From Blastocystis hominis (taxonomy: Eukaryota; Sar; Bigyra; Opalinata; Blastocystidae): DNA of 64,000 nucleotides. The stretch covers positions 310,001-374,000 of the forward strand of contig NW_013171817.1 of NCBI RefSeq assembly GCF_000151665.1, read 5' to 3'. The first letter of the stretch is position 1. Each line of letters starts with the position of its first letter. Made by a program: the position numbers and the translations under genes. The notes below the pieces were generated by a model, which was not told the origin of the DNA, did no database searches, and saw only the letters and a list, made by a program, of their open reading frames with translations. Positions 13,657 through 63,526 of this stretch are shown here, in pieces.

Positions 13657-15756
13657 AATCACTATCTGCAAAAATATCCATATCAAACTCGCTATCCTCG
13701 TCCTCATCGCTGTTATCCCCCTCTTCATTATCCACATCGATCTGCAATTCATCATCATCATCATCCGCCAAAGGTGAATTGGTCGAGACAGGTTCCGGCC
13801 CTCTCTTGGGCGTGATAAACTCCTGCGCTGGTTTGTAATACACCGAAGCCACCGATCCCAGTTCCTCCAACATCATGTACAACAAATCATCATCCATGAC
13901 CTCTTCATAAATCGGCTTCATACTCGCTCTCGACGACAGCACGACCTTCTTCGCCGTCTTCGGTGCATACGACAGCAACCTCCAATACCTACCCCATCAT
14001 CATCTCTCATCTCGCTCCCCTACAAATACGCACGATCTCGCAAGTCCACGCTCAGCGTCTCCGCCGTCGCCAGCGTCAGCAGCGTGGTCACGAGCTGCTT
14101 CCCCGCATCGGGTCGCTTCACGAAGAGCTTCACAACCGCGGTTAAAAGCTGCAATTGCACGCAGGCTTTCTCGTCGTGGAAGGTTTCCACGAAGAATTCC
14201 AGCAGCTCATCCGCGTTCTCGATGACGTCCGCGTGCTCTCCGATGATCCAGACCATGGCTGCGCGTGCCCGCGGTTCATCGATCAATTCCATGGCGCTGC
14301 AGACGGGGACGAGCACGGACGTGTATTTGCCCGGGTAGAGCCGGAAGAGGTCGGCAAAGACGAGCACGACCTCCTGGACGATGTAGGAGATCTTGCTCTG
14401 GAGGAGGAAGAGCAAAACGTTGACGCAACGGTCGGCGGCGGTCTCGAGTTTGATGGCGCAGCGCGCGATCGCGCGGACGGAGGCGCGGACGAAGGGGACG
14501 TCCGCCTGCACGGCGTACTCCTTGAACTCGCCGAGGATGCGCTCGATGTGCCGCGGCGTGGCGAGGCTGATGAGCAGCTCGAGTTTCTCCATTTTGACGT
14601 AGTAGGGGTCGTTGTATTTGCAGAAGAAGACTTGGATCGTCGACGCCATGAGGTTCGGCACTTTCTGGATGATCAGACGCAGGTTCCGCAGCGCCACGTA
14701 GCGCAGCTCCGCGCACTCGATGCTTGTGAGCGAGACCAGCGCGTGCGCGAGCTTGTTCAGCGTCGCTTTCATGAGCTCTTCGTCGCAATCTTCGATGTTC
14801 AGCAGGATCACTTTCACCGCGCTAGATCTCAGCAGAACCGCGGGAATCTACCCCATGATCACCGCAGTGTTCGCGTGCTGGAGGCGCGGAGCCACGCGCT
14901 CGATGATACGGCTGGCCTCGGCTTCGTCCTCGGGGATGTACCGCGAAATCGCTTCGAGAATCGCGATTTGGCCCCACTCCGAACACTCCTCCAGACACAC
15001 CAGCAGACGGTTCAGGAGCTTGCCGTTCACGCGTACAGTGTCCGTGCCCAGCGTCTCTGCGATGTCTTGAAGGGCGAAGAGCGAGTTCGACACCACGAAC
15101 GGACTCGAGTCGCCGATCATTTTGCGAAGACGGAGGATGAAGCCCTCCTCCTCGCAGCGCTCCGGAGCCATGTCGTAGAGCTTCGCTACGCACACGGCGG
15201 CCGTCTTGCGAACGTAGGGATCGACATCATCGAGACATCGATCGAGCAGAGGAACTAGGTATTCGATGACCGACTGGACACGAAGACACGCCATCGTGCG
15301 AAGCGCCAGCGAACGAATCAGCGGGTTCTTGTCCTCACAGTCCTGAACAAACGTATTCACGGAAAGGAGCGTCAGTTCCGGATTTTCTTTTGCGTATTTT
15401 AATAGATATCTAGAAGATGAGGAAGGCGCTTGAAGAAACACGTACAAGTAAACCAACTTCTTCAATTCTAAGGTCTCGTTGTGAATGCAACTAATCACAT
15501 CGGGGAACAAGGAGGACACATCCGTACCGATTGTCATGGCTGCGATCACGCATTTCATCGTTTTTCCGACTTGTCGCTTATCCAGCCCATGCAACTGAAT
15601 TCTCCAGTCATTGATATCACCTCTCTTGGTCGTATTGAAATACCTCACATCGTTTCCTCGGATTTTGCGCATAATCTTCTTATAAACCTGCTTCGTAGCG
15701 TAATAGCCACGTTTAGCAGCATTTTCGATCTTTCGGTCGAGTTCGGCAGCTTTCAT
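13657..15756 (-). CDS. Beta-adaptin (AP-1/AP-2 type), no appendage domain
   Basis: Large subunit of a clathrin adaptor complex acting in vesicle budding. The 666-residue product matches the beta trunk: KRGD near the start, VIAAMTIGTDVSSLFPDV, NETLELKKLVYLY, VNTFVQDCEDKNPLIR, LDDVDPYVRKTAAVCVAKLYD, EWGQIAILEAISRYIPED and RDRAYLYWRLLS. After the trunk there is only a short hinge with a very acidic tail; the hinge-ear appendage (about 230 residues) is absent. Introns of 36, 30 and 35 bp were removed. Translation runs without a stop into TGTTTGTT; cleavage 4 nt upstream of the motif supplies TAA after codon 666. The CDS end at 13657 is the genomic T of that stop. The N-terminal 40 residues before KRGD are an extension. 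Confidence 0.9.
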
Positions 15757-16095
15757 CAGAATAACAGTACAAAAATAGGGAACGATTTTCACTTTTTTCT
15801 CCAGAAATGCCTTTTGAAGTCTTCGTGTTTGAACAACTTTCTGGAGCTGGCACGATCAATCGGTTGAATCAGTGCTTCTATGCTCTTATGGTTTGCCAAT
15901 CCTCCAATGCTCTATTTTTTTATCTAATATACTTGGCAATCCTTTTCTTCCTTGTCGATTCCTCTAATAATAATACATCCTATATTCAAAAATCCTTTTA
16001 AACTTTTATTTCTTCGTGTAGTATTTTGGCGGGTTTCTTGTTCACCCTCTCAATTTATACAAAATTATATATTTAATAGTACTTAGAAACAGTGG
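15757..16095. other. Intergenic region between divergent adaptin and SMC1 starts
   Basis: 338 bp, AT-rich toward the SMC1 side. It must hold both promoters. No TATA-like or repeated element stands out, and no RNA gene was recognised. Confidence 0.5.
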
Positions 16096-19000
16096 ATGGG
16101 ACGAATAGATCGAATCGAGACTGAAGATTTCAAGTCCTATCGCGGCCGTCACGTTATCGGCCCCTTCAAACAGTTCACATGCATTATTGGTCCCAATGGG
16201 GCGGGTATACTTTTAGTTGTGGAGAGTCACCGAATAGGAAAATCAAATTTAATGGACGCGATCAGCTTTGTTTTGGCCATTCCCATAAAGAACTTGCGTA
16301 GTACGAATCTAAGAGAACTAGTGTTTCGGAATGAGAGTCAGCATTTTGTGGCGCGCACCTGCTCCGTCTCCATGTTTTATATGACCGATGAGTCCGATCA
16401 GAATGTGGAACCTGGGCAAGAGATCGAATTCTATCGTCAGGTGAAAGAGAATGGGCAGTCCCAATTCAAGATCAACGGAAAGGCCTACAGATATGAAGAT
16501 TACCTGTCCAAATTAGCTGATTGTAACATCCTTGTAAAGTGCCGCAATTTTGTGGTGTACCAGGGCGATGTGCAAAACATTGCTGCCCGCTCTCCCGAGG
16601 ACCTCGCTCGTTTGTTCGAGGACCTCTCCGGGAGCGCCGACATGAAGCAGCAGTACGACGAGCTGCGCGCCGAACGCGACCGTCTGCGCAACATCATGGA
16701 CATGAACCTGAAGAAGAAGTACACGATGATCTCGGAGAAGAAGCTAGTCCAGGAGCAGAAGCGCGAGGCCGACGAGTTCCAGGAGAAGCAAATGACGCTG
16801 CGCGACCTGCGCGTGGAGTACTTTTTGTGGCAGCTGCAGTACCTCCAATCGAATTTGGAGGCGCAGCAAGCGCGCGAGGCGCAGCTGGATCGCGAGCGCG
16901 AGCTCTGCGAGCGGAACGAGGAGGTTGGACGCGAGGGGATCGATGGATTGGTTGTAGAAAGCGCGGGAGACGAAGGACTCGAGCCAACGCAGCATGGCGC
17001 AGCTGCGCGAGGAGCTGAAGAGCGAGGAGGCGAAGCAGCAGCGGATCAACGAAGCGATCCGCCAGAAGCAGCCGGAGAGCGTGAAGCTGAGCGACCGGAT
17101 TCGTCGCAACGAGTGCTCGTTCGCCCCTCTCTTGAAGCCTAGAGCGCGGATTCGGCAGTGCGACGCGGCCATCGCGCGGCTGCGCAGCGAGCAATCGACG
17201 CTAGAGGCGGAGGACCGCGCTCTGGAGGAGGATCTGCACCGCATGAACGTGACGCTGGAGGCGCTGGCGGAAGCCGTTCCGAAGACGCAGGCGGGCGTGG
17301 CGATGTCGGAGGCGCAGAAGGCGCGGTACGCGGAGCTGAAGGAGGAGTTCGACCGACAGGCGGGCTTCCTGGTGCAGGCGAACGAGGCGAAGCGGCGCGA
17401 GCGCGCGACGGTGCAGACGCAGATCAAGCAGAAGCGCGAGCAGATGGAGAGCCATCGGCAGGAGCTGGAGAACACGCGTGTAGGCGATTTTACGGAGAGA
17501 GAGAGAGTGAATAACGGGTAGAAAGTGGTGCAGGAGCTGCGCGGCCAGGAGCAGCGACTGCAGAGCAGCGCGAAGGACGCGGAGAAGATGGCGGCGGCGC
17601 TAGCGGCGCGGAGCGAGGAGATCCGATCGGACTTCGCGTCGCTGAGCGAGCAGCTGCACGAAGTGGGCGCGAGGGAGCGAGGCGAGGCGTAGAAACGCGG
17701 GGAGATGGAGCGGCTGCAGGCGGAGCTGCGCGGCGCGGCGGAGAGCCGGGAGAGCTCGAGGCGCGACGTGCAGCGCCGCGAGTGCGTGGAGCGACTGAAA
17801 GAGCTGTACCCCGACGTGCGCGGACTGCTGCTGGACATCTGCGTGCCCTCGCTGCAGAAGTACGGAGAGAGAAAGCGCGAGGGCTGAGCGGTAGGTACAA
17901 CGTGGCCGTCAACGTCGCGCTGGGGAAGCATCTCGACGCCGTCGTGGTCAACACCAAGCAAGTCGCCGTGGAGTGCGTGCAGTGGGTTCCCCGGTTTCCC
18001 CGTTCCGTAGATACCTGAAGGAGCAGCACATGCCGCCGCTGGACTTCTACCCGCTGGACTCGCTGCGCCCCAAAGACATCCGCGTGGAGATCCGGTCGGA
18101 GCTGAAGCGGTCCGGGTGCAAGCTCTTCTACGACCTGCTCAAGTTCGACGCGGACGTGGAGGTGGCGGTGCGCTACGCGATCGGGAACGCGATCTGCGCG
18201 AGCTCGCTGGCGACGGCGCGGCGACTGGCGTACGAGACGCGGATCGGGGAGAAGATCGTGACGCTGGAGGGCGAGGAGATCAGCAAGAGCGGAGCGATGA
18301 CGGGAGGCTGGGGCTGGAGCGCGGCGAAGCGCGGCGATCGGTTCACGGAGAGGGAGCTGGCCGCGAAGACGGAGCGGCTGGGCGTTCTGGAGAAGGAATG
18401 CGCGGAGATGGAGAGGCGCGTGCAGCGCGTGGCCGCGACGTCCGACGCCGTGCGGCAGGTGGAGATCGACCGCGACCGCTACGCGAGCAAGCAGCGGTGA
18501 GCGCAGAGAGCGGGGCTGATCGCGTAGAGTGCTGGCGTCGGAGCTGGAGGCCGTGCGATCCAAGCTGCAGGGCTACGCTGCGCGCATCGCCACGCTGGAG
18601 ACCGACCTCGCGCAGGCGCAGCAAGCCCTGCAAGCCCTGCAGCGCGACGAGGACGGACTGGTCTCCGCGCTCTCCGCGCTGCTGCAGAAGCTCACCGTCG
18701 CGGAGAAGCGCGTCTATGGGTCCCTGCTGGACGAGCTGGGCGTGGAGAGCCTGCAGCAGCTGGAGACGGAGATGGTGGGCAAGCTGCGCGAGAACGAGGC
18801 CATGCAGGCGGAGTGCCGCACGCACATCGCGCTGCTGCAGACCAAGAAGAAGTACGGCCGCGAGCGGCTGCAGAGCGCGCAGCGCGAGCTGGCGGAGCAG
18901 GCGGCGGCGCGGAGCAAAGCGAGTCGGCGGCTGGAGGAGCTGCGCGGGCGCGCGGAGAGCGAGGACGCGGGGCTGCGCGCGCTGGACGAGGAACTGGAGG

Positions 19001-20242
19001 CCGCGCAGGTGGCGATCGTGAAGGTGCAGCGACGCATCCGGGAGGAGGAGGGACGCATCGGCGTGGTGGACGCGCGCATCCGCGAGGTGGACACTGCTGC
19101 CAAACCGGTCACACGTAGAAACGAAGCCAGGCGAAGAAGCTGGACGACGCGGCGTCGAGCGTGCGATCGGCGATCACCATCCTGCAGACCAAGCGGAACG
19201 CGATTCTCCGCTCCGCCGCGATGGAACAGATCGAGATTCCGCTGCTGCCGGGGAGAGAGAGCGAGGCAGGAGCCACGGAGGAGAGCGAGGGAGCCACAGG
19301 AGCCACGGGAGCCACAGAAGCCACGGGAGCGATGGAGGTGGAGTCTGAATTCGCGGAGACGAGCACGGGGTTTTCCCAGCAGTACACGCAGCGATTGGAG
19401 ATGGCGATCGACGAGGACGACGCGATGATGCGGCGCATCGACTTCTCGAAGTGCAGCAAGCCGACGGAGGTAGGGACGGCGCGAAGCCTCGACGCTAGCT
19501 CTCCGAGCTGGACTACGCGCGCGTGGACGAGGAGTTCCGCGGGCGGATCGGGCAGATCGCGTCGGAGCTGGACCGCATGCAGCCCAACCTGCTCGCCGAG
19601 AAGAAGTTCCTCGACCTCTCGGAGCGCGTCTCCGCGATGAACGCCAGCCGCAAGAAGCTCGTCGCCGCCTTCCACGACGCCAACCAGGCCTTCCTCGCCT
19701 GCAGCGACACGCGCAAATCGCGGTTTTTGGAGGCTTTTCAGCTGGTGGAGGCCGCCATCGACGCCACCTACAAGGACCTCACGCGCAGCGTGCAGTTCGC
19801 CACCGGCGGGCAGGCCGTGCTCACGCTGACCAACCCCGACGTGGGTTTCATGCGGGCGTTTCACGGGTAGGAACCGTATCTGGGCGGGGTGAAATACACG
19901 GTCAGTCCCGTGGGGAAGCAGTTCCGCGACATCCACCAGCTGTCCGGGGGCGAGAAGACGATCGCGACGCTGGCGCTGCTGTTTGCGCTGCATCGGTTTA
20001 GAAGGGCGCCGTTTTTGGTGCTGGACGAAGTCGATGATGCGCTCGACAATGCCAATGTCCAGAGGGTCGCCAAGTATATCGAGGAGAACGCCAGGCACAC
20101 GCAGTGCATCGTGATTTCCCACAAGGATATGCTGTTTGAACGCTCCGATGCCCTCGTCGGAGTGTATCGCGATTGGAGGGAGGACTCCTCCGCCGTCCTC
20201 ACGCTCGATCTGGGCAAGTACGACGCGGCGGAAGAGGCGTAG
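16096..20242 (+). CDS. SMC1: SMC1, cohesin ATPase subunit
   Basis: Cohesin core subunit holding sister chromatids together. The 1263-residue product has the Walker A loop CIIGPNGAGKSNLMDAISFVL (completed across intron 1), a first coiled coil, a hinge around GRYNV-type sequence KYNVAVNVALGKHLDAVVV and GEEISKSGAMTGGWG, a second coiled coil, the ABC signature HQLSGGEKTIATLALLFALH and Walker B PFLVLDEVDDALDNANV. RSTNLRELVFR and YQGDVQNIAARSPEDL are SMC1-specific. Eleven introns (29-42 bp) were placed; the spliced length is a multiple of three. The coding region is GC-rich (Glu/Arg/Leu codons ending in G), which produces long antisense open frames that are shadows. The stop is TAG 20240-20242. Confidence 0.95.
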
Positions 20243-20289
20243 CGGCTCGCTGCTGCTTGTTTTTGTGCTCTTTGTGATGAGAAGTTGCT

Positions 20290-20297
20290 TGTTTGTT
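20290..20297 (+). terminator. TGTTTGTT poly(A) motif
   Basis: Exact motif 47 nt after the SMC1 stop. Confidence 0.75.
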
Positions 20298-20395
20298 TGG
20301 AAAGCCAAAATCGGCGAATTCCCGCGGGAGCGTGGGTTCAGCGGAAAGTGCATCCCTGTCCGACTTCTAGTTTTTTCTTTGTATCTGTGAGCGAG

Positions 20396-22708: not shown

Positions 22709-22718
22709 GCTGTTTACT

Positions 22719-22726
22719 TGTTTGTT
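22719..22726 (+). terminator. TGTTTGTT poly(A) motif
   Basis: Exact motif 10 nt after the threonyl-tRNA synthetase stop. Confidence 0.85.
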
Positions 22727-28137: not shown

Positions 28138-28145
28138 AACAAACA
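28138..28145 (-). terminator. TGTTTGTT poly(A) motif creating the RPA2 stop
   Basis: The RPA2 frame is open up to this motif. Tail addition 4 nt upstream, after 28150, completes TAA. Confidence 0.85.
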
Positions 28146-28149
28146 CCCC

Positions 28150-31100
28150 AACAAGAAATCTTTTCCACATCAAACGCCACCTTAATATTCATCGCCGCGA
28201 GCTCGTTCACCAGATACCGCGTCACATACGGCATGGGCACCAAATGGCACGTCGTGCTGGTCTTGCACACATGGCACACCACTACACCTCACTCTCCTTC
28301 CCCGTTTCCACTCTTCGGCACGCGCGAGCTGAGCGTGGCGGCTTCCTGCTGAGTCATGGGCTTGGCGGTGGCGGAGAGCATGCTTCCGCACTTATCGCAG
28401 ATCACTGCGAGATGGCGATCCGACGAGTTCAGCAGTCGCTCGTGCAGCAAAAACGACGCGCCGTGCGCAATGATCGAGTCGCGCTCCATCTCTCCGAACC
28501 GGATTCCGCCGTGGCGCTTGCGGCCCTTCAGCGGCTGGCGCGTGAGCTGGTTGATCGGTCCGTTCGCTCGCACCTGCGACTTGTCGCTCACCTAGAAGAA
28601 CTCAGCGGGGCGTTAAAGGACTACCATGTGGCGCAGTCGCTGATAATAGACCACGCCGATGTAGATGTCCGCCTCCAGCAGGTCGCCCCAGATGCCCGAG
28701 TACAGCGGCTCGCTGCCGTAGTAGTTGAACCCCGCCGCCTTCAGCTGCTCCCCGAAGAAGTCCACCGCGCACTGCTTCTCGCTGAACTGGAACGGCGTGG
28801 CGTCCTAGAGTCGACTCTCCCGCGGGGATCTACCATGTACTGTCCGTGGAGCGCGCCGGACTTGCCGGCCATGGACTCGATGAGCATTCCGATGGTCATG
28901 CGGGAGGGGAAGGCGTTGGGGTTGATGATGCAGTCGGGCGTGATGCCGGAGGCGGTGAAGGGCATGTCGATCTGCGGCCACAGCACGGAGAGCACGCCCT
29001 TCTGCCCGTGCCGCGAGGAGAACTTGTCGCCCACCACCGGGTTGCGGTTGTACCGGAACTTGATGTTCACGCGCTGCACGCCCAGCGCGGGGTCGCCGTC
29101 GAGGATGCGGACCTCGTCCACGTACGCGGGCTCCGAGGAGTCGTGGAAGCGCAGCGAGGTCTTCCCCGTCTCCGTGTTGTACACCGCGCAGATCGCGTCG
29201 CCCTTCTGCACGAACAGACCGATCGGCGGCAGTCCGTCGGGGTCCAGCCGCAGCGCCGAGGGGTTGCTGGAGGCGATGGCCTCCCGCGGGGGGCGCTTGA
29301 AGATGAGGGACTTGGTGGCGGGGTCCTTGGGGTCGACGAGGTCGATGTCGTGGCTCTTGTAGACGGAGGCGTGGGCGAAGCCGCGCTCGAAGGAGGACTT
29401 GTTGAGGATCATGGCGTCCTCGAGATCGTAGCCCGTGTAGCTGATCACCGCCACCACGCTGTTCATGCCCTGCGGGTACGAGTCGAACAGGAACTCTCGG
29501 TACAGCGCGTTGTGCACGATCGGCGCCTGCGGCGTCTGCAGACGGTACATCTTGGTGTCGGTGCGGTGCGTCCAGGACAGCCCCGGCGTGCCCATCGTCT
29601 GCTTCCCCATCTGGCACTGGTACATGTTGCGCGGACTCTGGTTGAAGTCCGAGAACGGCGTCAGCGACGCGATCAGCGACAGCATGTTCGCCGGCGAGAC
29701 CTCGATGTGCGTCGTCACGCCCTTCCGGATATCTTCCTCCACGCACGCGATCTCCAGGTACACTTGCTCCAGCGGACCGATCCACTCCGTCTTTCCGGTT
29801 CCCAGGTGCCGCACCGGCCGCTGCATGCGCGCCGCGTCCGTGCTCAGGTACACGCACGGCCACGGACCGCCCTGCTCCCCCGCGGGGACGCACACGATCT
29901 CCAGGCAGGCGGGGAGCTTGGCCCCGTCGAGCTTGAGCAGCCGGAGCTGGTCGCAGAAGGCGGCGGCCTGGGCGGCGAGGACGCGGCCGAGCAGCTGGCC
30001 GTTGAAGAACACGGGGACGTAGTGGTTGCCGTAGACGAGCGGGGAGTCGGCGGGGACCAGGCCCAGCGCCTGGCAGAGCCGCGCGAGCTGGGGGGCGGGG
30101 ACGACGTCGGTGGTGATGGAGCAGGTGGCGGTGAGGTGGTTCAGCAGGCCGCAGGGCGCGCCGTCGGGCGTGTGCACGCAGCAGAGGAAGCCCCAGGAGT
30201 CGGGGAGCAGCTTGCGCGGCTGCGTGGTCTTCATCTCGGTGAAGAACTGGCCGCGGTGCACGGAGCGGAAGTGGGAGAGGTAGCGCCAGTGGTTGAGCTT
30301 CTCGGCGACGATGGTGTAGCCCGCGGCCTGCTGGAGATCGAGTCCCGTGGAGGAGATGATGTTGCCCGTGGCGAGGAGGTAGTAGGCCTTCTTGCCGATG
30401 TCGGACTGCCGGTCCAGCGCCTTCTTGATCCACGCCGTGTCGTAGAGGTCGATCTTCTCCTTGTGCCGATCGACTTCGCGCGCGATGTTCTGGCGCACGC
30501 CGATCAAAAACTCCTCGAGCTTCTCCTTGAGGAACATGCACATCAAGTGGCCGCCGAGCAGGAGCTCCTACGCATCACCCAAAAAAACAGAAAGGAGACG
30601 TGGTTCATGAGGGAATCGGCGTTGTCGGGCGGGATTTCCTTGTTGGCGAGCTTGTAGAGCTTGCTGATCATCTCCAGCAGCAGCGCGAACTTCGCTTCGT
30701 TCGACTTCAGATGCACCAGGATGTACCGCTTCAGCAGCTCCTCGCCCACCTCCACGTCGCTGTACCGCGACGACATGTACAGCAGGATGCGGAACCGCGA
30801 GCCCAGATACGCCAAGCACTCGCGCCGCGTGGTTCTGCGCTCGATCCGCTCCCTCACCCCTACAAGTGCATGTTCTTGCTCTCGCGCAGCAGCAGCTCCA
30901 GCCGATCGCTCAGGAACGTGTTGTTCGAGTCGCCCCGCATCAGCTGCTCGTAGATCTCGCGGTCCGAGCAGTCCTTCAGCGCTTTCAGGATCAGCACCAC
31001 CGGCACGAGGAACTCCTGCTTGCGGATGAACCAGCGCAGCGTGCAGCGGCCATCGCGGAGATAGTGCAGCGTCACCGTCATCGAGGACATGTCCTCGCGC

Positions 31101-49094: not shown

Positions 49095-49102
49095 AACAAA
49101 CA
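49095..49102 (-). terminator. TGTTTGTT poly(A) motif creating the coiled-coil gene stop
   Basis: Coding is open into the motif. Tail addition 4 nt upstream, after 49107, makes TAA. Confidence 0.8.
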
Positions 49103-49106
49103 GAAA

Positions 49107-50239
49107 AACTATAATGTACATAATCACGAATGAGTTTAACAGCTTCCTCTTCCGCAAACGGAGCGAGTCTCTCCAGCGCTTCTTTGTCAAATACGAGCGT
49201 GGCATTCCTTGCACAAATCTCTTCCACCCGCATTAAACATTCCGAGCGCATCGATGGACTAACCTTTTTAACCAGCGAATAGAGTCTCCGCAGTGTCTTC
49301 CGTTCATCTCCCAGCTTCGAGTCCACTCGTTTCTTCAAGTCTTCCTTGCTTTCTGTGGGGGTAGGCGGAGCTGGTTGTCGAAGGTCTGCGATTCGCTTTC
49401 TCAGTTCTTCACAGCGTTGCCTGCTTTTGTTTAGATGCAATACAGTCTCATCAAGAGCGAGACGAGAAACGATCGGATGATCAGACAACGATGCTCGTAG
49501 TTTGCCGGTCTCTTCCTAGAAATAAGGTCATTAAATGTGATAGCGAAATACGCGGAGTGAATTGAGCTCCGTCATTAAGGATTCACTTTTTCGTTGCTCA
49601 GCCAAAATACTATCTTCGTTCAAACCTGTCAGTACTAATTCTGCTTGAGCATGAAGTGACTGAACGTTAGAGGATGATTTCTCGACCTAGAATAATAAAA
49701 ATGAAAATAAAAGTACTTGAGAATGAAGAGCTTTCAACTGTGATTCAACCTCGGTTCGTTTCTTTTGTAATACTTCCATTTTTTCGCGATGCTTATTCTA
49801 TAAAAACTAGTGCATAGCAAAGGAAATCCTACTTCTTCCACTTCCATTGTACTCGTAGCTTCCTCACTTAAGGAAGAAGATAATCTTCGTTTTTCACTTA
49901 AAATGGATTCTCTTTCCTTTTCCAAAGATTGATATCTTGTTTTCACTAAACTCAACAGAATTATGAAGGCATACATTCATCAATACATCTATTCATGTAG
50001 CGTATTGATTCTTCTTTATTCTCACCAGAAAACTCAGCAATCTCCTCTTTCAATACGAAGTTCGATTTGTGCAGCGAAACAAACTGCTTGTCTCTTTCTT
50101 CAATCTATCAAATTACAGGATTTCAAATAGAACTCACATTACACGTAATTGCAGCCATCTCGTTGCACGTGGCAACTACAGCATCGACTGCATTACAAAA
50201 AATATCAGCAATTCTTGAGAGGGAATATACTGAATCCAT
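49107..50239 (-). CDS. Coiled-coil protein of unknown function
   Basis: A 306-residue, mostly helical protein, unrecognised. After a short N-terminal helix (MDSVYSLSRIADIFCNAVDAV) it has long Glu/Lys/Gln/Leu heptads (YQSLEKERESILSEKRRLSSSLSEE, KHREKMEVLQKKRTEVESQLKAL) and a C-terminal helical domain ending KLIRDYVHYS. Kinetochore or spindle-type proteins have this look, but no signature supports it. Introns: 33, 80, 35, 30 and 36 bp; the 80-bp one is unusually long and may hide a small exon. There is no genomic stop before the motif; the T at 49107 is the first base of the tail-completed TAA. Confidence 0.65.
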
Positions 50240-52582: not shown

Positions 52583-53011
52583 TAATAATAATAATAATGA
52601 GATTGTATACATTGAATTCTGGTTGTTTGTTGTGGAACTAATTATGGATTGGTTTGGAGCGATAAGATATCGAAGAGGGAGGGCTATTGGGGATTAAACG
52701 TGGTTTGGATGAACTGTATTTCAAATGCTAAAGGTAGATGAAGAAATGGATGCGTTTTGTATTGGGATGAATCTGGTTGTTAGTTTGTTACCAGGAAATG
52801 GCTTCATTATTCGGTTCACTCTATTGTCATATTGCATGCATCCAGATAGAACATCATAAATAGAATCATCTCCATCACAAAATAGAGGAAAACGAAGAGT
52901 TAGACAAAATGACTACGAACTATGGTATATATACTACAACATTATTCACCAAACGAACAGTCATCATGGTAATATGACATTTCGTTGAATACTGCAAACT
53001 CATAAAACAAA
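52583..53011. other. Intergenic region, motif then featureless
   Basis: 429 bp. It holds a short (AAT)n run after the Hsp70 stop and the poly(A) motif at 52624. A 44-codon frame at about 52728-52859 lacks support. Otherwise nothing was recognised. Confidence 0.45.
52624..52631 (+). terminator. TGTTTGTT poly(A) motif
   Basis: Exact motif 41 nt after the Hsp70-like stop. Confidence 0.8.
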
Positions 53012-55320
53012 ATGTCTGGAAGGGGAGATAACACTGTACATCTCAAATGAATCACCAATGACCCCTAGGTGAGAAATCGAGATCCAGCACCCATTCAAAT
53101 CACTGCTGAACAACTTTTGCGAGATACAAAAGAACGTCAGTCTTCTGAAGTGAAAACGCCTATTCAGAAGATTCAAAACTCGGAGGTATATAATAAATGT
53201 GCAAATCCGATGTGTATAGGAATTGGCCGAATGGAGATTTCTTCAGCGTCGTCACTTTGAAGAAGGTATAAAGAACCAGAGACAGCACATGGGAAACTAC
53301 ATAAAATATGCAAAATGGGAAGAGAAGCAGGTAAGTGTGTATATTGTTGATCGAATGACAGGATGAAATCGAGAGAGCCCGAAACATATATGAGCGTGCA
53401 TTGGACGTCGATCCGACAGCTTATTCTGTGTGGATAAAATATGCGGAGTTTGAGGTGCGAAATCGCAACATCAATCATGCTCGCAACGTATACGACCGAG
53501 CTGTAACGATTCTTCCTCGTGTGGACCAACTTTGGTAGATTGTTGTTTTTTCTCCTCACCCAGGTACAAATTCGCCTATCTGCAAGAGAGCATCGGCGAC
53601 ATCATCTCCACTCGCACCGTCTTCGAGCGCTGGATGCAGTCCTTCCCCAATGAGCAAGCCTGGCTGACCTACATCAAATTCGAGCAGCGCTGCGGGAAAC
53701 TGGACAACGTCCGCAAGCTCTACGAGCGAATGATCGACCAGCTCCCCGAGCAATCGGTAGCCAGCCCCTCTCTGCACTCACTCGCAGTCGTACATCAAAT
53801 TCGCGAAGTGGGAGGAGCGAAACGGAAACAAACAAGCCTGCCGCGCCGTCTTCGAGCGCGCCACGACGGAACTTCACCAAGAGAACGTGGACGAAGATTT
53901 GTACTGTGCGAGGCCGGGAGATAACGGGAAGGTATCTGGAGTTCGCCAAGTTCGAGATTCGGTGCAAAGAGATCGACCGCGCACGTGCCATTCTGAAATG
54001 GGCGCTGGAGAATCTGCAGGGCCCCAAAGACACGCTCACGGCGGAATACACGCTGTTCGAGAAGCAGTACGGCACGATGGACAACATCGAGACCATCCTT
54101 TTAGCCAAGCGCAGAGACCAATACGAGGCCATCGTCAAGGAAACGCCCTTCGATTACGACGCCTGGTTCGACTATCTGAAGATGCTCGAGCAGCAGAACC
54201 GGCCCTCGGAGGTCGTGGAAGCCTACGAACGCGCGGTGTCGAACGTCCCGCCGAGCAAGGAGAAGCGGTTTTGGCGGCGGTGAGGGTTGGCGGGAAGGAG
54301 TGAGCGGCAGCTATATTTATCTGTGGATCTACTACGCTCTCTACGTCGAACTCGAGCTCGAGGACGCCGATCGCGCCCGCGAGGTCTACAAGAAGTGCAT
54401 TCAGACCATTCCGCACAAGAGCTTCACCTTCGGAAAGGTTGGAATTCCAAAAAACCCTCGATTTTGTGTAGATCTGGATTCTCTACGCGAAGCTGGAAAT
54501 CCGCCAAAACAACCTCGCCAAGGCGCGGAAGGTGCGGATTTGATGCATAACTGAGGAATAGATCCTGGGCGAAGCCATCGGCCGCTGCCCCAAACCGAAT
54601 CTTTTCAAGTTCTACATCGCTTTGGAGTGTCGTTTAATGAACATGGATCGCTGCCGCGCCATTTACAACAAGTTCATCGAGTTCGATCCCTCGCGGTGCG
54701 CCACGTGGATTCAGTTCGCCGAATTCGAACAGAACCTCTCCGAAACCGAGCGTGCCGCCGCCATCTACGAGCTGGGCATTTCTCAGGAGTCGCTGGACAC
54801 GCCCGAGCTGCTCTGGAAGAAGTATATTGACCTGGAGAACACGCTGGAGCACCGAGAAAAGGTGGAAGAGCTGTTCGAGCGATTGCTGCAATTGGCCTCG
54901 CACAGCAAGGTCTTCATTGCGTATGCGCAGTTCGAGAGTAAATGGGACGCGGAGAAGGCCAGAGCGATCTTGGAGCGCGGTATCGAGGAGTTCAAACTGA
55001 GCGGAGAGAACGCGATGCGCCATCAGCTGCTTGTGTGTCTGAAAAGTCTGGAGGAGAGTCTGGAGGACAACGACGAGCGCATACAGAAGGTGCAGAAGCG
55101 GCAGGCGCGGATTGTGCATAAACAGAGGGAGAACCCGGAGACGGGAATTAAGGAGGATTATATTGATTATGAGTTCCCGGACGATGCGATGGAGTCGATG
55201 CAGATGCAGTTCTTGAAGGCTGCGGAGAAATGGAAGATGGCTGCGCAGAAGAAGCAAGCAGAGGAGAAGCAGGAAGAAAGTGAAGCGAAGAGATCGAAGG
55301 TGGAGGGAGAGGAGAAGTAG
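53012..55320 (+). CDS. CRNKL1: CRNKL1/Clf1 (crooked neck), HAT-repeat spliceosome factor
   Basis: NineTeen-complex scaffold in spliceosome activation. The 674-residue product opens with [23 protein letters not shown] (the crooked-neck N-terminal signature [13 protein letters not shown]) and then has about 14 HAT repeats: [156 protein letters not shown] and others. Nine introns (29-34 bp) were placed; the spliced length is a multiple of three. The Lys/Glu-rich C-terminus is typical. Stop TAG 55318-55320. Confidence 0.95.
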
Positions 55321-55346
55321 TGAGTGAACGATGGGTTAGTTTGGAT

Positions 55347-55354
55347 TGTTTGTT
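55347..55354 (+). terminator. TGTTTGTT poly(A) motif
   Basis: Exact motif 26 nt after the CRNKL1 stop. Confidence 0.8.
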
Positions 55355-55435
55355 GTGAATTAATTGACCAATATAGAGATATAGAGTAGTCGGTGTGTTC
55401 AACAGAACGAAAAAAAGGGAATGAGGAAAAAAGAA

Positions 55436-55508
55436 TTCCCACACCGGGAATCGAACCCGGATCGGCAGGGTGAGAGCCTGCTATCCTAACCTATTAGACT
55501 ATATGGGA
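55436..55508 (-). tRNA. tRNA-Glu(CTC)
   Basis: 73 nt. Acceptor TCCCATA/TGTGGGA with discriminator A. D-loop AGTCTAATAGGTTAGGAT. Anticodon stem GCAGG/CCTGC with loop CTCTCAC (anticodon CTC at 55472-55474). T-loop TTCGATT. No CCA; a minus-strand T run follows. No intron. Confidence 0.95.
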
Positions 55509-55649
55509 CCTGTTTTCAGGTCTCGCTGATGCCATATAAAACTCCGGATAGAGTTTGCATTGTGAGAAATAATACCTCATATTCGAATCATAAATCCAGA
55601 TACTCTCTGCAACTATACACTCCACACAACAACCACCATTGCTTTCTCT

Positions 55650-55657
55650 AACAAACA
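55650..55657 (-). terminator. TGTTTGTT poly(A) motif
   Basis: Exact minus-strand motif 29 nt after the IST1-like stop. Confidence 0.8.
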
Positions 55658-55686
55658 CCTCCAGCAAACAAGACAAGTAAAAACCC

Positions 55687-56587
55687 TTAATCGCTCTCGG
55701 ATTCAGACTCAGACTTTTTCTCCTTCTTCTCCTTCTTTTCCTTCTTTTCCTTCTTCTTGGGCTTCTCCTCCTCCGAAGACTCGGACTCGCTCTCGCTCTC
55801 GCTCTCCGACTCATCGGAAGACGACTCCTTCTTATGATGATGCTTCTTGGACTTGCCCGACTTTCCGGACTTCTTGGCCTTCTCGGCCTCCTTCTTGGCC
55901 TTCTCCTCCTCCTTCTCGCGCTTCTTGCAATCCTCCGTCACCTGCTTGGCGCGCTCCTTCACGGCCTTGGACTCGGGCTTGTACTCCACCATGGCGACGA
56001 TCTCCTCATCCACGTTCGTGTGCTTCTTGCCGCAGATCTTCTCGATGTACTTCTCTCCGTACTTGAAGGTGAACTGGTGCTTCACACGGAGGAACGAGGG
56101 AATGCTGAACACATCGGCCAGGTAAATCACCACGGCCACGTCCTTCTCCAGCTCCTCAGGGCACTTCTTCTCCTTGCGCAGAGTCTTGGCTTGGGCCTGA
56201 ACGTTCTCCACGATGGGGCAGACCTTCTCGATCAGAGCGATCTTCTTCTCGATGACCATCATCTCGGAAACTTTGTCTCTCATCTTATCCTTGTCGTTCT
56301 TCTTGTAGGCGAGGTAGGCCTGCTCCTCAGCGAACTCAAACTTCTCCTGGACCCATCCGTATTGCTACTCCTCAGGAATTTCCATCATCTCTACCTCGTT
56401 CAGCTCGTCAAACAGAAGGGAAGTCTGCGTTTTGAATTCCTCGGCGTTCCACTCCTTCACAGTGAGCTTCCAGGTAGGAATCTTCTTCATCAAAAAACCA
56501 GGATTAGGGACTATTCCATTAGCATCACCTCACTATAATCGTCCTACGGAAAGCCTTGATAGCCTTTTCAGCAGTGTTCACGTTCAT
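55687..56587 (-). CDS. IST1-like (ESCRT-III regulator) helical protein
   Basis: A 277-residue product. Helical residues 40-175 (FAEEQAYLAYKKNDKDKMRDKVSEMMVIEKKIALIEKVCPIVENV, LEKDVAVVIYLADVFSIPSFLRVKHQFTFKYGEKYIE) recall the Ist1 domain, including the LP.EL..VR..F..KYG pattern, that binds Vps4 and CHMP proteins in ESCRT-III turnover. The C-terminal third is charged low complexity: Lys/Glu runs, SGKSGKSKKHHHKKE, Ser/Glu repeats and KKEKKEKK. No MIM motif was seen at the end. Introns of 37 and 30 bp. Stop TAA 55687-55689. The family call is moderate. Confidence 0.5.
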
Positions 56588-56882
56588 TCAGGATACAATT
56601 CTTGATATACACTCATGGATTCACGTCAGAATCTAATCCTATTGTTTTCAATCTATTTTATACTTGGTATTTTGGGCATAGATTCGGGTGCATTTATATC
56701 AATATACAGAAATGACCCTATTATCTCAGTCAATATCATGTTCATGAAATAGCTTTGATAATGAGATTGCATTTTTATACACATCTCGGGTTCCATATAG
56801 AGTGGGGGTCCCTTTCAATCATTGCGTGTTTTTTATGCTTCGCTTAGGATCGATAGAGTATTCTCCACAAGTGTTTCTGGCA
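56588..56882. other. AT-rich intergenic region
   Basis: About 295 bp between the IST1-like start and the PIGW motif. No gene or repeat was recognised. Confidence 0.4.
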
Positions 56883-56890
56883 AACAAACA
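56883..56890 (-). terminator. TGTTTGTT poly(A) motif
   Basis: Exact minus-strand motif 5 nt after the TAA of PIGW. Confidence 0.85.
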
Positions 56891-56895
56891 CAGAG

Positions 56896-58467
56896 TTACT
56901 TGGAGAGTAGACAAGTGAAAAACGACACAACTCCCAGGTACATAGCCAGCAGCAAAAATGCTGCCCAGTTCTGCACAAATAAGGTCTTTATAGACACATT
57001 CACTACCGCAGTTAAAACATTTGCCTAGATCAAATGACAATAACGAATCTACAAGCAGAAACGCGAAAAGCTGGTGTTTGTTGAATGCATCCAAAATCAT
57101 CGGGACAAAGAACGATCCATAGAATGTATTCAACGTGTATCCGCACAGTAAAATCGACATCATCACAAATAACACCAGCAATACAAATGCAGCATTACAC
57201 TACACTCGATCCACCCTTTTTCTCTTACCATCCGTCTCGACGCAGGCTCTACAAAGCTGTTCAACATCCAGAATAAAGATCCGCTCGCTACCCAGAACGT
57301 CACCATCCATCCTGCGCATTTTCCTCCACCGCGTCGAAGAATTCCAGAGATTCCAGCGCACATCCAGTACAAACTCGTCAGTCCGAAGCAAGCGAACATC
57401 CCCACCGCATTCGCCATCAGCCATCCCTTCTCCGAGGGAGCGCGCAGCGAATCTGAAAGTCCGATTGAGAGCAGAAGCTGGTAATATCCAGCGAGCCCGA
57501 GACCGCTCGCAAGCAGAACGAACGGAGAGCGGATGAGATGCAGCGCCGTGCGACCCGCAGCGAAAACGACGGCGAGCGAGAAGAAAAAGTTCCAGTCGCG
57601 ACCATACTCGAGCGAGGAAGCGACATAGCCCGTAACTAGATGAACACGAAAAGGCAGAAAAAACCGCGGAGAAAAAGCCAGCGCGTAAAACCCAAAGCCA
57701 ACAACACGAGCTCCGATCGCAAAAAGGAAGCTAGGGATCGGCGCGACGATGCAACGAGAGCACTGATAACGATGTAGAGGCCCACACCGATATCCATCTG
57801 GATGAGAGATGGAGGGAAAAGTCCTACCAAAGAAAACCCCTGCAAATAAGTTTTGGCATATTTCCGTGGAAAGAGAGGGAAATCTACAGCCAAAATGCAG
57901 AGGATTCTATGTGGAAATGGGGAGAGAGAAACGGATACGTGTAGAGGACAACGATGCCGCGGAACATCGTGATGTATCCCTTGCGATCACTCTCAATCGA
58001 CCCCATTGTGAGAATGAGCGAAGCGTTTTTCTTTGTCTCATCGTCAAAGGGGATGCTGGATATTATCATTCTTTGAGATAAAAAAATACAGTCTATTGAT
58101 TCCGTGGAGTGCTGCGATGACGACTATACTGCCGAGATACAGATATTTGCGCTCATGGAACACAGTACACACACACAAAATCGGAATCACGATGATGACA
58201 AACTCCAAAGCGAAGTGGACACAGAATAGAATCCAGCGATGCAACTTTGAATACCACTAACACTCAATTCAGGAATGTGAGTAATACGCGTGATTTCATA
58301 AGCAGAGTAACCAGCTCGTGGTAAATTACGCTGACTACCGCGGAATACAGGATCGTTGACAAGATGTCAACTAAAGAACACCCGGTGGCATTGATCGAGA
58401 ATAGCTCTTTTCCCTGTTTGTAGTTATTCTCCGCCACTTGCAATACACTCAATGTTGAGTTTTCCAT
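56896..58467 (-). CDS. PIGW: PIGW/GWT1, inositol acyltransferase of GPI-anchor synthesis
   Basis: ER enzyme that acylates the inositol of GlcN-PI. The 452-residue product is polytopic (about 12 hydrophobic segments). Diagnostic blocks: ILCILAVDFPLFPRKYAKT followed by SLMDIGVGLYIVISALV, SSLEYGRDWNFFFSLAVV, EKGWLMANAVGMFACFG, EPASRRMCNAAFVL and, at the C-terminus, NKHQLFAFLLANVLTAVVNVSIKTLF. These match the conserved Gwt1 lumenal and membrane motifs. Seven introns (28-34 bp), with a spliced length divisible by three. The start codon is 25 bp from the end of the FNTB CDS and 13 bp below its poly(A) motif. Stop TAA 56896-56898. Confidence 0.93.
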
Positions 58468-58479
58468 TTCAATTGTTTG

Positions 58480-58487
58480 AACAAACA
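58480..58487 (-). terminator. TGTTTGTT poly(A) motif creating the FNTB stop
   Basis: The FNTB frame stays open into the motif. Tail addition 4 nt upstream, after 58492, gives TAA. Confidence 0.85.
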
Positions 58488-58491
58488 TTCC

Positions 58492-60039
58492 ACTCTTCCA
58501 CGATATCCACCTTAATCGAAATCTCGTCTCCGTTCAAGATATCTTCATGCATGCAGCTAAACTGACTGAAGTACTCCATGCACTGTTCCACCTTCGATTT
58601 CTCGATTCCGAACACGCTATCCACTTCCTTCTACTCCTCACCGCGTCTCCTCTCCCTCACCTCCAACACGCCCCCCAGCAAGCTCAGTCCGCACAGTCCA
58701 TAATTGGTATGATACAAATCGGGTTTCATTTCCGGTTTATCGCGTAACCCTCCGCTCCGCGGGTTCTGCTCCATCCTCAGCATATACTGCATCAACCGCG
58801 CGCGATCCGTCCACTCCTTCGCGCCCCTCGCCTTGGCCACATTCGCGATCGCCGACCCCACATACCACGAATAGCACCCATCGACCAGCTTATTGGTCCG
58901 TCCATTGTACCCTCCCTCCAGACTCGTCTGCCGGTCATACAGCCACTTCTACACTCCCATCTCTTCCCAATCCCCACTTCCAGCGCGTCCAAATCCGCGT
59001 CACGCAGACTCTCCAGAATCGACAGCCCCGCCACGCTGCAGAACGTGTATCCTCCGTGCGCCTCCGTTCCCGGAACGCTCCCGAAGCCTCCTTCGTACGT
59101 CTGGCATCTACTCACCAGCCCCGCGGAACACCCACCTCAGCAGGAACTCGCGAACCCCCGCGGTGAGCTGCGGCGTGAGCATGTGGAGGAGCTTGGCGAT
59201 GGCGAGAACGCAGTACGTGCTTCGCGAGTCGGCTTCGCTGCGGAGAAAAGTGGAAACGGAGAACTACCCGTGCGTGTGGACAGAGAAGGAGCCGTCCGGC
59301 TGCTTGACGCTGAGGAAGAAGCGATAGATGTCGGAGCGATGGATGAGGGCGTAGGATCGGAGGATGGCGAGCGTGTTCACAGCGGCATAAGTGACCATGG
59401 TGTGCGGATACTGGGCAATGAGGGGAGGAGAGGGAGAGATACTTCGAGATGGCTGCCTGCGTAGCCGCCCAGAGCGCAGCGACACGCTTCGATGGAGTTG
59501 ATGGCTTGGGGATAGCAGTCAATCGCCTCGGCGTTGAGCAGATCGAGCGAGTTGAGGACATAGTAGTAGAGCCAGGGTTTTCTATTTTTGTTAAAAACAG
59601 GGAAAAAAGAGAAGTACGCAGAGCATTGACTCATATAAGCGCCTCCTAGAGTGCCCAGGTGCTTGCGACAATACTGAATGTGTTGATCTCGCATAAAACA
59701 TATATTTCCATGTTCATCAAAGTATCCAGATTTGATTCTAGTTGCTAGTTCGTCTTGAGATAGCATATCATTCGGAATTAGGTAAGCAGCGCATCGTTCT
59801 TCACATTCTTCTTGATCTATCGTTGTTCGTGTCATGTAGCCATCGAAATCCTTGCAATAGTCAACAACTCCTGCAATTTCGCAATTTGTCTCATTGTTAC
59901 CAAAATCCTTCGAATCCGTATCTTCGGGCATTAGAAATACTCCTCTTTCTTTTAGAGATAATATACAAAAATCAAAATCTGCAGCTATTTCTTCCAAACC
60001 TGAAGCATTTCTCACCAATGCGTTGATATTTCTACCCAT
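58492..60039 (-). CDS. FNTB: Protein farnesyltransferase beta subunit
   Basis: Catalytic beta subunit that farnesylates CAAX proteins. The 454-residue product has the alpha-alpha barrel repeats: KPWLYYYVLNSLDLL, YPHTMVTYAAVNTLAIL, SVKQPDGSFSVHTHGEADSRSTYCVLAIAKLL, CQTYEGGFGSVPGTEAHGGYTFCSVAGLSIL, YNGRTNKLVDGCYSWYVG and the zinc/lid region DKPEMKPDLYHTNYGLCGLSLL. FNTB is favoured over GGT-beta by the zinc region and insertions; Rab GGT-beta is less likely. Six introns (28-36 bp). The frame ends ..KVDIVEE and runs without stop into GGAA-TGTTTGTT; the T at 58492 plus the tail completes TAA. Confidence 0.88.
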
Positions 60040-60094
60040 ATCTTTGTTCGATGGCACTAGATTTGTGTGAACATCGTTTTCGATCCAATTCTGT

Positions 60095-60102
60095 ATTCAA
60101 CA
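60095..60102 (-). terminator. Variant poly(A) motif GGTTTGTT (approximate)
   Basis: One-base variant immediately downstream of the ORC6-like TAG, at the FNTB 5' side. Confidence 0.45.
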
Positions 60103-60109
60103 AACCCAT

Positions 60110-61084
60110 CTATTTCTTGTGAGAAAAGAAATCTGAAATGGCTGTTTGCTTTGAAGCAACATGCTTGCTAGAACGAGCAGACTCATCTTTCCGTCGTTCA
60201 TTTGCATCGTGAACAGATTGTCTCCATTCTTTGTATTCCTTTGCTTTTTTCACATCCTGCGGGTCTGCTAACAATTCCTCCTCTTTCGATAACTCCCCAT
60301 CTACCACTTTCGCTCTCAATCGCTTCTCATCCTCCACTATCCCTCACTTTTCCACCATTTTCTTTTTACCTTTTACTCTTTTTGCTTCGATTTCCTCCGA
60401 AGATTGCCTATATTCTCTCTGTGTCACTCAATAGCCAGAATTACTATAGTCAGGAAACACGGTTTCGAACAAGGAAAGTGTGTGATCGAACGTGTCGATT
60501 GGAATGAGTAATTCTTCACAGAGTTTGCGTCGATTCAGAGAAACGCCTTCTTTTCGTAGCACAGCGTACATGCAGACTGCAGGAAGGCAAGGCGAAAAAG
60601 AGAGTGATGCGCTTTTGGTGGTTTGGATGCGCTGCTCCTATAAAAAAACAAATCAAAGCAGCCTTTCATTCTATACCTTGTACTTTTCCAATCGATCTTT
60701 TATTCTCTCCTTAAAGCGCTCTCCTCCATACCGTTTTACCAATTCATCAAGGGACGGATAAATCGGAATGTTCAAAGCCATCGCCACCTTGCTCACTAAC
60801 GGAGTGTACTGTTGTGTATCTGAAAGCATCGAACGTTTGGGAATATCATCGTAGTTAAATTCCCTTCCAAGAGAGCTGAGTATTAGGTGAAATGGGGTGA
60901 TATTCACCGCAAGGCTAACTCAAACGCGGCCGCAGGAAGAGCTACACGAAGCTAGATCAGAGTCGTTGAGAACGGATACATTTGGAGAGATGGAGGCAAT
61001 CTTCTCCGCCTTTGTGCGAATCTCATTCGTTTTCTGAATGAGCTCCTTGTCTTTGATATTGTAAACACGGAAAATGAAACTCAT
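60110..61084 (-). CDS. ORC6/TFIIB-fold-like protein (tentative)
   Basis: A 279-residue protein. Residues 70-210 contain a helix-rich part ending LPAVCMYAVLRKEGVSLNRRKLCEELLIPIDTFD, like the second half of the cyclin/TFIIB-type fold found in ORC6. The C-terminus, KQTAISDFFSHKK, resembles a PIP box (Q-x-x-I-x-x-F-F), used by replication proteins to bind PCNA. Together these suggest a replication role, most simply ORC6. Introns: 33, 39, 30 and 33 bp. The start is MSFIFRVYNIKDKE. The stop is TAG at 60110-60112. Confidence 0.4.
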
Positions 61085-61121
61085 TTAGAAAACACTGTAC
61101 ATGAAAATCACTACTTCCTCT

Positions 61122-61973
61122 TCACATGTTAATGCTGGAATTGTTCTTTCCCTTTATAGTAATAATTCTAGTAGACTTAATCTTCGGATTCTTGATCTCC
61201 TCATCCTTCAGTGAGGTTCGTTTTACAGATGCAACCGCGTCTTTTGCGCTTTGATCTTGGTGAGAAATTGTCTCGAGAGCTGTCTCCAGATACCGTTTGT
61301 TGATAACATGTCGAGCATAAAAGAATGTTAGAATATATCGAAACGGATCACTACGGATAAAACACAATGATAAAAATTGAAATACAAGAGATCACTCGCC
61401 AAATTCGAGATGATCAGATAACTAAACTACAGATGAATCTACACCCTATTGACAACTCACATTCGGGTATTGTTGTACTAAAGTAATCGCCTTGCTGGTG
61501 TAGGCGGTTTTCCCTAGGAAATCTACAAGAGAATCCATAGGAAGGAGGCCGTTCTTGAGCAAAACATATAATCCTCCCCAAACACCAAGATAACTAGAGA
61601 TTACAGCGATGAACGCTGGCATACACTACTGTGGTAAACACGACCACGTTGAGTCCGCCCAGTTTCAAGATCTGGTTTTTAATTCCTCCAACCCGCTTGA
61701 AGAATCCCTGGTTTCTATTCTCTGGTAAATCTATCAGACACATGATGTCCCTCCATTTTAGATTAGGAATATCCTTTTTAGGAGGTGAAGAAGATTCTAC
61801 AACATAAAGAACGACAAAGTTGTACCCTTTCTGAAAAAGAGCCTATCCCGAAAAGGAGAATTCGAGCTCGAAAAACGAACAACAAGCGAGATGCTCGCTC
61901 TGCTTTGAACAGACCTGAGCAGCATAGGAAACTGCAATACGCGAGAAGTACTCACAACACTTCTGGACAACAT
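61122..61973 (-). CDS. FAM210/DUF1279-like organelle membrane protein
   Basis: A 235-residue product. The N-terminus MLSRSVVSTSRVLQFPMLLRSVQSRASISL is basic, Ser-rich and free of acidic residues, as in mitochondrial presequences. The DUF1279 core follows: LKLGGLNVVVFTTVVYLGVWGGLYVLLKNGL (membrane helix), LVDFLGKTAYTSKA and DPFRYILTFFYARHVINKRYL. A charged helical tail follows, as in FAM210A/B. Introns of 29, 31, 39 and 45 bp; the third and fourth are less certain. The start lies 30 bp below the poly(A) motif of the kinase gene. Stop TGA 61122-61124. Confidence 0.6.
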
Positions 61974-62002
61974 CGAAAATCCCTAGTGTCCAAAATGATT
62001 CT

Positions 62003-62010
62003 AACAAACA
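62003..62010 (-). terminator. TGTTTGTT poly(A) motif creating the kinase stop
   Basis: Tail addition 4 nt upstream, after 62015, turns the codon after AAA CAG into TAA. Without cleavage the genomic frame reaches TAG just inside the motif end. Confidence 0.85.
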
Positions 62011-62014
62011 ACAC

Positions 62015-63526
62015 ACTGTTTCACATATTTACACGGCGTCAGCGGATAATACTGCTGCTCCTCGATGAAGCCATTTACCACATCGTCCATCGTCCGGAAG
62101 CTCATCAGTCTGATCTCCAGACCTTCATCATCTCCTACCTCGCCTCCCACTCCGCATCAAACCGTTCCTCGCACGCATTCGGCACGATCTCATCCCGCAG
62201 ACTCGAGAAAAACGGATGTTGCAAAGCCTCCTACATCATCATCATCATCATCCCTTCCTCCACCGCCGCACTAATCCGCTTCGCCGGATTAAACGTCAGC
62301 ATCTTCAGCATCAAATCCGCCGCATCCGCGGGCACCGCTCTCGAGATGCACTGCAAAAACGGCCGTTCTTCGACGCGTTTTCGCCTCACAAACTCGCGAA
62401 CTTCCGCTTTTTCGATCATTTCCAGATCCTATTCTCAACAAAACGCATCGCTCTCACTTCCTCCGTCGGCCTGCCGAAGAAGCTGAGGATCAGGTCCATC
62501 AATTTGTCCGCGTTCGGAGCCTGGGAGTGACCGCTACCCGCGGGAATGACCTGGAAAAAGGAGGATCCGTGGAGCATTTCGGCGAGAACGACGCCGCAGG
62601 ACCAAATATCGACTTTGTTCGTGTAGGTCTGATCAAAACCCGATCACTCCTGGTACCTCGTTTTCCACGAGCAGCTCGGGAGGGCGATAATCGCGGGTCA
62701 CGACGTAGGAAGTGAGGTTGATCGCGTTGGAACGCGCCAAGCCGAAGTCGCAGAGCTACACGCCATGAAAGATTGTGTTTTTGTGTACCGCGACGTCGCC
62801 GGAGGACGTGAGGAGAATGTTCCCGGGCTTGATGTCGCGGTGGATGAACTAGGGAAAAGGGGAAACCGGGGAAAACGCCCGCGGAATGGATGTAGCGAAG
62901 ACCGAGAAGGATTTGGTAGGTGATGACGCGGATTTGATCGATGGAGAGGTACTGGGGAAAAGGGGAAACGGGGAATGAAACGTTCTGTGCGTCGATGGCG
63001 ACTTCGAGGTCGAAGGAGTAGAGCGGAGAGACCATGTAGAGCATGATGGAGCGGTTTTTCTGGGGAAGAACGGAGAGAGGGGAGTACGATGTTGCGGATG
63101 TCGCAGACGTAGGGATAGCAATAGAAATCGACGATGTCGAGGACTTGGGGGCACTTGTTGAAGAAACGCAAGTAGCGGAGTTCTCTCTAGGAAAAATCAA
63201 AAGAAAAAATGGGGAAAACGAGAGAACGAATATGTGTAGTATCGAAAGTGGGCAGCAACGGAGATATTTTGATTGCCACCTTCATGTTTGTCACCTGGAC
63301 ATGAGATAAAGACATTGAGAGAAACAGAATCAATAGCGGAGCAGACAATTCCATAACTGCCGCAACCTATCGCTGCCAAGGAATGATAGCGCGCATCGAT
63401 GTGTAAAATCAGCTTCTTCACGGAATACGTCACAAAGGACCTGGAAAAGTGAGAGTGAGGAAAAAACCGCTACCGCTTCAAAAGCGCAACAGAGCTTATT
63501 CCCAAAGGATTCGGGACTGCCTCCAT
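62015..63526 (-). CDS. MAP-kinase-like CMGC kinase with TSY activation loop
   Basis: A 382-residue Ser/Thr kinase. It has a Gly-rich loop GCGSYGIVCSA, VAIK lysine, RELRYLRFF helix C, [23 protein letters not shown] catalytic loop, LCDFGLAR, an activation segment NAINLTSYVVTRDYRPPELL and CMGC-type VDIWSCGVVLAEML. The threonine-x-tyrosine motif is TSY, and the residue after TR is Asp instead of W or Y. It is otherwise close to the ERK/JNK/p38 group. Twelve introns (28-34 bp) were placed. The frame ends ..TPCKYVKQ and enters GTGT-TGTTTGTT; the T at 62015 is completed to TAA by the tail. The start is MEAVPNPLGISSV. Confidence 0.88.

Follow-up and report, generated by a model that had tools for sequence, protein, structure and literature searches.

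Predicted tail-completed stop codons four nucleotides upstream of a downstream element in Blastocystis genes

Five genes on the minus strand of the window, the whole 64,000-nucleotide stretch of Blastocystis hominis DNA analysed here, remain open up to a last templated T that is followed by four nucleotides and an exact copy of TGTTTGTT. We consider it very probable that all five are ordinary nuclear genes of a Blastocystis-like stramenopile in which a downstream element determines the 3′ end and the poly(A) tail completes the stop codon. In such a scheme, pre-mRNA 3′ ends would be specified by the element UGUUUGUU, which the cleavage machinery would bind in order to cut about four nucleotides upstream, preferably after a U. 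Poly(A) polymerase would then add A's, and where the cut falls in frame after a codon's first base (U), the tail would write UAA. Many genes would have lost their templated stop because their 3′ UTRs shrank towards zero, and the subunit that recognises the element and fixes the spacing may be a shortened CstF-64 (CSTF2). The motif, spacing, frames and base preferences come from the present analysis, and the poly(A) sites were established by EST in published work (PMC4159000). That the 3′ signal must be intact was shown with a reporter, in which changing the motif and two upstream T's together brought expression down 324-fold (PMC6395660).

When all exact motifs were extracted together with their surroundings, the five sites were recovered, all on the minus strand and with the bases that the earlier note had given, and the observation is confirmed as real. 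The sites, together with those of a neighbouring sixth gene, are the following.

13098-13105, minus strand: motif after the PHF5A stop (exact match)
13108..13110, minus strand: templated TAG of PHF5A/SF3b14b, cut after its T, predicted to become UAA (by homology)
13645..13652, minus strand: TGTTTGTT downstream element of the AP-beta gene, motif start 13652 (exact match)
13653..13657, minus strand: last templated T and spacer TGTG, predicted T|AA, AP-1/AP-2 beta adaptin gene (frame from homology)
13658..13988, minus strand: predicted final exon of AP-beta, with a 35-nt putative intron (14023-13989) upstream
28138..28145, minus strand: TGTTTGTT downstream element of the RPA2 gene, motif start 28145 (exact match)
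28146..28150, minus strand: last templated T and spacer GGGG, predicted T|AA, Pol I RPA2 gene (by homology)
49095..49102, minus strand: TGTTTGTT downstream element of the coiled-coil gene, motif start 49102 (exact match)
49103..49107, minus strand: last templated T and spacer TTTC, predicted T|AA, coiled-coil protein gene (136 open codons)
58480..58487, minus strand: TGTTTGTT downstream element of the prenyltransferase beta gene, motif start 58487 (exact match)
58488..58492, minus strand: last templated T and spacer GGAA, predicted T|AA, protein prenyltransferase beta-subunit gene (by homology)
62003..62010, minus strand: TGTTTGTT downstream element of the kinase gene, motif start 62010 (exact match)
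62011..62015, minus strand: last templated T and spacer GTGT, predicted T|AA, MAPK/CMGC-like protein kinase gene (by homology)
62109-62016, minus strand: inferred last exon of the kinase gene (by homology)

With the last T as codon position 1, the upstream frames stay open for 113 (13657), 46 (28150), 136 (49107), 46 (58492) and 47 (62015) codons. The five sites of the earlier note all have T at position −5 from the motif in the correct phase, and their agreement follows in part from how they were chosen. At three of them (28145, 58487 and 62010) a TG|A stop with a 3-nt spacer is also possible; because both distances give stops there, genome sequence does not decide between four and three nucleotides at these sites.

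The gene identities were obtained by aligning joined translations with solved structures and by Pfam profiles. Homology names four of the five genes as RPA2, AP-beta, prenyltransferase beta and a kinase. The last exon is covered to a large extent in RPA2 and AP-beta, partly in prenyltransferase beta and barely in the kinase. In RPA2 (28150), residues 3-121 of 126 align to residues 1017-1134 of a 1135-residue solved chain, and the predicted end therefore lies five residues past the aligned end. The AP-beta product (13657) aligns with AP-1/AP-2 beta adaptins over residues 1-191 of its 238-residue joined translation; what follows is acidic and still belongs to that open exon. For prenyltransferase beta (58492; inferred last exon 58630-58493), alignments extend to residue 111 of 146, while for the CMGC/MAPK-like kinase (62015) most end before the short last exon and a few reach residue 167 of 187. 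The coiled-coil gene (49107) has no solved relative and a Pfam match only below threshold, so that the case for it rests on its 136 open codons. PHF5A represents a related case in a sixth gene: its joined translation matches a solved relative over the full C-terminus, up to and including the final residue, and the predicted cut falls within its templated TAG (13110-13108). As an aside, the AP-beta gene (13658-14847, minus strand) apparently ends at the acidic hinge without an ear (appendage) domain, for which there is no space because PHF5A starts about 75 nt past the motif.

The element itself is strongly over-represented in both the window and the genome. The window holds 31 exact copies of TGTTTGTT, whereas 100 shuffles gave 1.71 on average and at most 6, and the whole genome (18,707,701 bases in 40 contigs) holds 7,304 matches with overlaps counted. 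A backward-pattern control is also high, at 5,456 matches, because the control word overlaps the motif and its T-rich flank; TGNNNTGTTTGTT gives 1,573 matches versus 161 for its own backward-pattern control. In motif number the genome fits Blastocystis ST7, for which counts of 3,329 + 3,403 are given (PMC5608401), compared with 3,601 + 3,703 here with overlaps. In the window plus 100 kb on each side (264 kb), T is the commonest base at −5, occurring at 58% of 101 exact sites; genome-wide it occupies this position in 4,298 of the 7,304 matches, tandem arrays included. The spacer had been described as free in sequence, a claim at odds with the same 101 sites, where −4 is mostly T (43%) or G (37%) and −3 is G in 45%. 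Across all of them the element looks wider than TGTTTGTT, being T-rich at −6/−5 with G or T at −4 and G at −3, and on the 3′ side the motif is followed by G or T and then an A-rich run. Two further observations concern the layout of the motif. A TGTT tandem array at 75114-75145 in window-offset coordinates (outside the window, contig C3) contains seven motifs that overlap one another and closely follow a templated stop. The motifs at window position 52624 (plus) and at offset −11377 (minus) are embedded in identical flanking sequence, ttgaattc tggt TGTTTGTT gtggaa, which suggests a duplicated gene end.

How often the tail would make the stop was evaluated in two samples. In the 264 kb, using a codon model trained on long frames, an upstream frame was assigned at 50 of the 101 exact motifs, 7 of them in one TGTT array; the second sample comprised 80 further sites on contig 1 that had been selected to have T at −5, of which 41 were assigned. 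Sites without a clear upstream frame numbered 51 of 101 and 39 of 80, respectively. Among the 50 assigned sites, 36 reach a templated stop ahead of the cut, a tail would complete T|AA at 10, one has TA|G, and 3 would be left with no stop. Considering only frames that run open to the cut, T|AA accounts for 10 of 13 and no stop for 3 of 13, against 22% T|AA expected from base frequencies at random phase (p = 5e-5); outside the window alone, T|AA is found in 6 of 9 (p = 0.006). One of the ten, at 75185, may be false because a coding-like frame continues downstream. In the second sample a stop lies upstream at 26 of the 41 assigned sites; a further 10 would give T|AA, at 2 a templated stop would be converted (T|AG or T|GA) and 3 would lack a stop, and phase 1 is used in 10 of 13 open-through frames versus the one third expected (p = 0.0016). 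Some of the sites without a stop (3/50 and 3/41) may reflect motifs arising by chance, repeats or introns that were overlooked. When one mismatch was allowed in the motif, frames that end comprised 5 tail-made and 10 no-stop cases and continuing frames 20 no-stop cases; most one-mismatch matches are thus chance, since no-stop frames outnumber tail-made ones, and the search yielded zero additional tail-made stops inside the window.

These counts bear on the reading that the five genes end conventionally, at the first in-frame stop after the motif or in a further exon, with T at −5 there by chance. A templated in-frame stop does begin at the motif's last T in three of the five (28145, 49102 and 62010), and in the first sample such a stop was present at 7 of 11 tail-made sites, compared with 22 of all 89 sites outside tandem arrays (p = 0.007). 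This enrichment was not replicated in the second sample, with 1 of 10 tail-made sites (p = 0.94). Genome-wide, RA after the motif accompanies 536 of 4,298 matches with T at −5 (12.5%) versus 432 of 3,006 without (14.4%), hence slightly rarer with T (p = 0.019, tandem arrays included). Furthermore, published ESTs place cleavage before the motif (PMC4159000), and the in-phase T in 10 of 13 open-through frames contrasts with the 22% expected, so that we find conventional stops highly improbable. A back-up stop after the motif, considered as a candidate feature, was rejected as well, having failed in the second sample and lacking a positive genome-wide association.

To what extent the sequence defines the distance between cut and motif was evaluated by scanning spacers of 0-8 nt at 21 tail-made sites, 11 from the 264 kb (10 assigned and 49102 added by hand) and 10 from the second sample. 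A stop results at all 21 for a distance of four, which is built in, at 15 for a distance of three (8/11 in the 264 kb and 7/10 in the second sample), at 9 for a distance of one, and at 5 or fewer for the remaining distances. Three does well too because T at −5 often precedes G or A. With four and three both performing well, the sequence narrows the distance without fixing it.

The direct measurement is found in the literature. Among 2,419 poly(A) sites mapped with Blastocystis ST7 ESTs, 2,333 have the motif exactly 4 nt downstream, allowing up to 2 substitutions in it, and the remaining ~4% are described as departing from the motif at more positions, as lying 3 or 5 nt away, or both (PMC4159000); a second study reports the same distance between cut and motif, mainly at the fourth base (PMC4360255). 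A rigid 4-nt distance and hence a ruler-like cut, with one dominant distance expected between poly(A) site and motif, is what the earlier note had proposed, and the distance had in fact been measured in 2014. Alternatively, the spacing could be a selection artefact: cutting would be loose, at about 3-5 nt, and only working sites would look like exactly four. The 15 of 21 tail-made sites at which the sequence leaves a distance of three open would fit loose cutting, whereas among the EST-mapped sites 2,333 of 2,419 lie at exactly four, most of them without a tail-dependent stop (PMC4159000). T is also favoured at −5 in 16 of 27 sites of the 264 kb whose templated stop lies 11 nt or more upstream of the motif, an argument qualified by the same 27 sites favouring T at −6 too (18/27). 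Taken together, we attach very little probability to loose cutting and continue with a cut held about four nucleotides from the element.

On the published EST evidence the distance stands, and with it a ruler-like cut; a fixed codon phase, also claimed, does not, any more than the free spacer. Published work counts 372 genes with tail-made stops, 13 of them UGA (PMC4159000), a stop that needs TG|A, making the phase favoured rather than fixed. One TA|G occurs in the 264 kb, and there are predicted T|AG conversions, for example in PHF5A at 13110. Since sites with a stop upstream share the T at −5, the cut seems to prefer U regardless of the need for a stop. This preference alone predicts a T|AA share of 78% for tail-made stops at random phase, so that five out of five is unsurprising (0.78^5 = 0.29); the dominance of T|AA is about what the T preference at the cut predicts.

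One might argue instead that the phase is actively held, with selection favouring T|G at the cut because a slip of one nucleotide then still yields UGA. Indeed, 8 of the 11 tail-made sites in the 264 kb would survive such a slip. Against this, G at −4 occurs in 21 of 26 stop-upstream sites with T at −5 versus 5 of 10 tail-made sites (second sample, counted by eye, p = 0.10), and G at −4 therefore looks like a general preference, being as common or commoner where a stop lies upstream. We judge active maintenance of phase unlikely. Slip tolerance of T|G was discarded as a selected trait, as it shows no excess over stop-upstream sites, and is kept as a by-product.

The earlier note had also suggested looking for altered cleavage subunits, and a six-frame profile search of the genome, exon by exon, returned several components. 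CSTF2 appears to be a short protein: it was found as a 132-amino-acid ORF with the end of an RRM and the hinge, followed by a templated stop, and the rest of the RRM would lie in an exon upstream; in the CSTF2_hinge search the bacterial control matches lay below the cut-off. In Blastocystis ST7 the protein has 142 amino acids, and the authors propose short CSTF2 as the reader of the motif (PMC4159000). Fip1 and the CPSF73/100 C-terminal domain were both found. CstF-77-like Suf repeats are present, in a family that also matches other HAT-repeat proteins. CFIm25, which reads the upstream element, was not found, a weak negative in an intron-rich genome searched exon by exon and with one sub-cut-off control match, and Symplekin_C and CSTF1_dimer gave no match in the six-frame search, uninformatively, as the controls were silent too. 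Within the window, a weak Suf/HAT-repeat match at 53350-53756 (plus strand), in a gene that is interrupted by putative introns of short length, is likely another HAT protein rather than CstF-77.

Tentatively, the cleavage machinery may be a stripped one that takes the position of the cut from the downstream element alone, with CstF-77, the short CSTF2, Fip1 and CPSF73/100 retained and no CFIm25. Short CSTF2 would act as a ruler holding the endonuclease four nucleotides off, with a built-in preference for U before the cut and G/U after it. Base preference, and not selection for stops, would then make T|AA the usual tail-made stop. We offer this as a possible reading, though a rather doubtful one.

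Turning to known systems, a literature search for Proteromonas with Blastocystis and polyadenylation returned no match, and at the level of search results nothing on nuclear genes elsewhere was retrieved. In animal mitochondria, stops consisting of U or UA are completed to UAA by the A-tail, and transcript ends derive from tRNA punctuation rather than from a downstream element. These tail-completed stops share the U/UA plus tail giving UAA with the present ones and differ in being mitochondrial.

For Blastocystis, the pattern of tail-made stops is already known from Klimes et al. 2014 (PMC4159000), and for ST1 a figure of 26% of genes is given (PMC5608401). The window therefore represents an independent, sequence-only recovery of a known rule for genes without stop codons. 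It has practical consequences for annotation, as gene finders requiring a templated stop mis-end such genes (PMC4159000, PMC5608401), and raises the question of which part of the 3′-end machinery fixes the four-nucleotide distance. A B. hominis study (PMC4360255) describes the same element at the same distance, with U preferred at the attachment position; as far as its account goes, it is, unlike the present analysis, not centred on missing stops. With Klimes et al. (PMC4159000) our sites share TGTTTGTT, a predicted distance of 4 nt between cut and motif, the predicted T|AA stop, the predicted conversion of TAG to UAA, the occurrence in nuclear protein genes and the short CSTF2. There is no substantive difference, the rule being read here from the genome alone, and in all features that could be tested the genes follow the Blastocystis system already in print.
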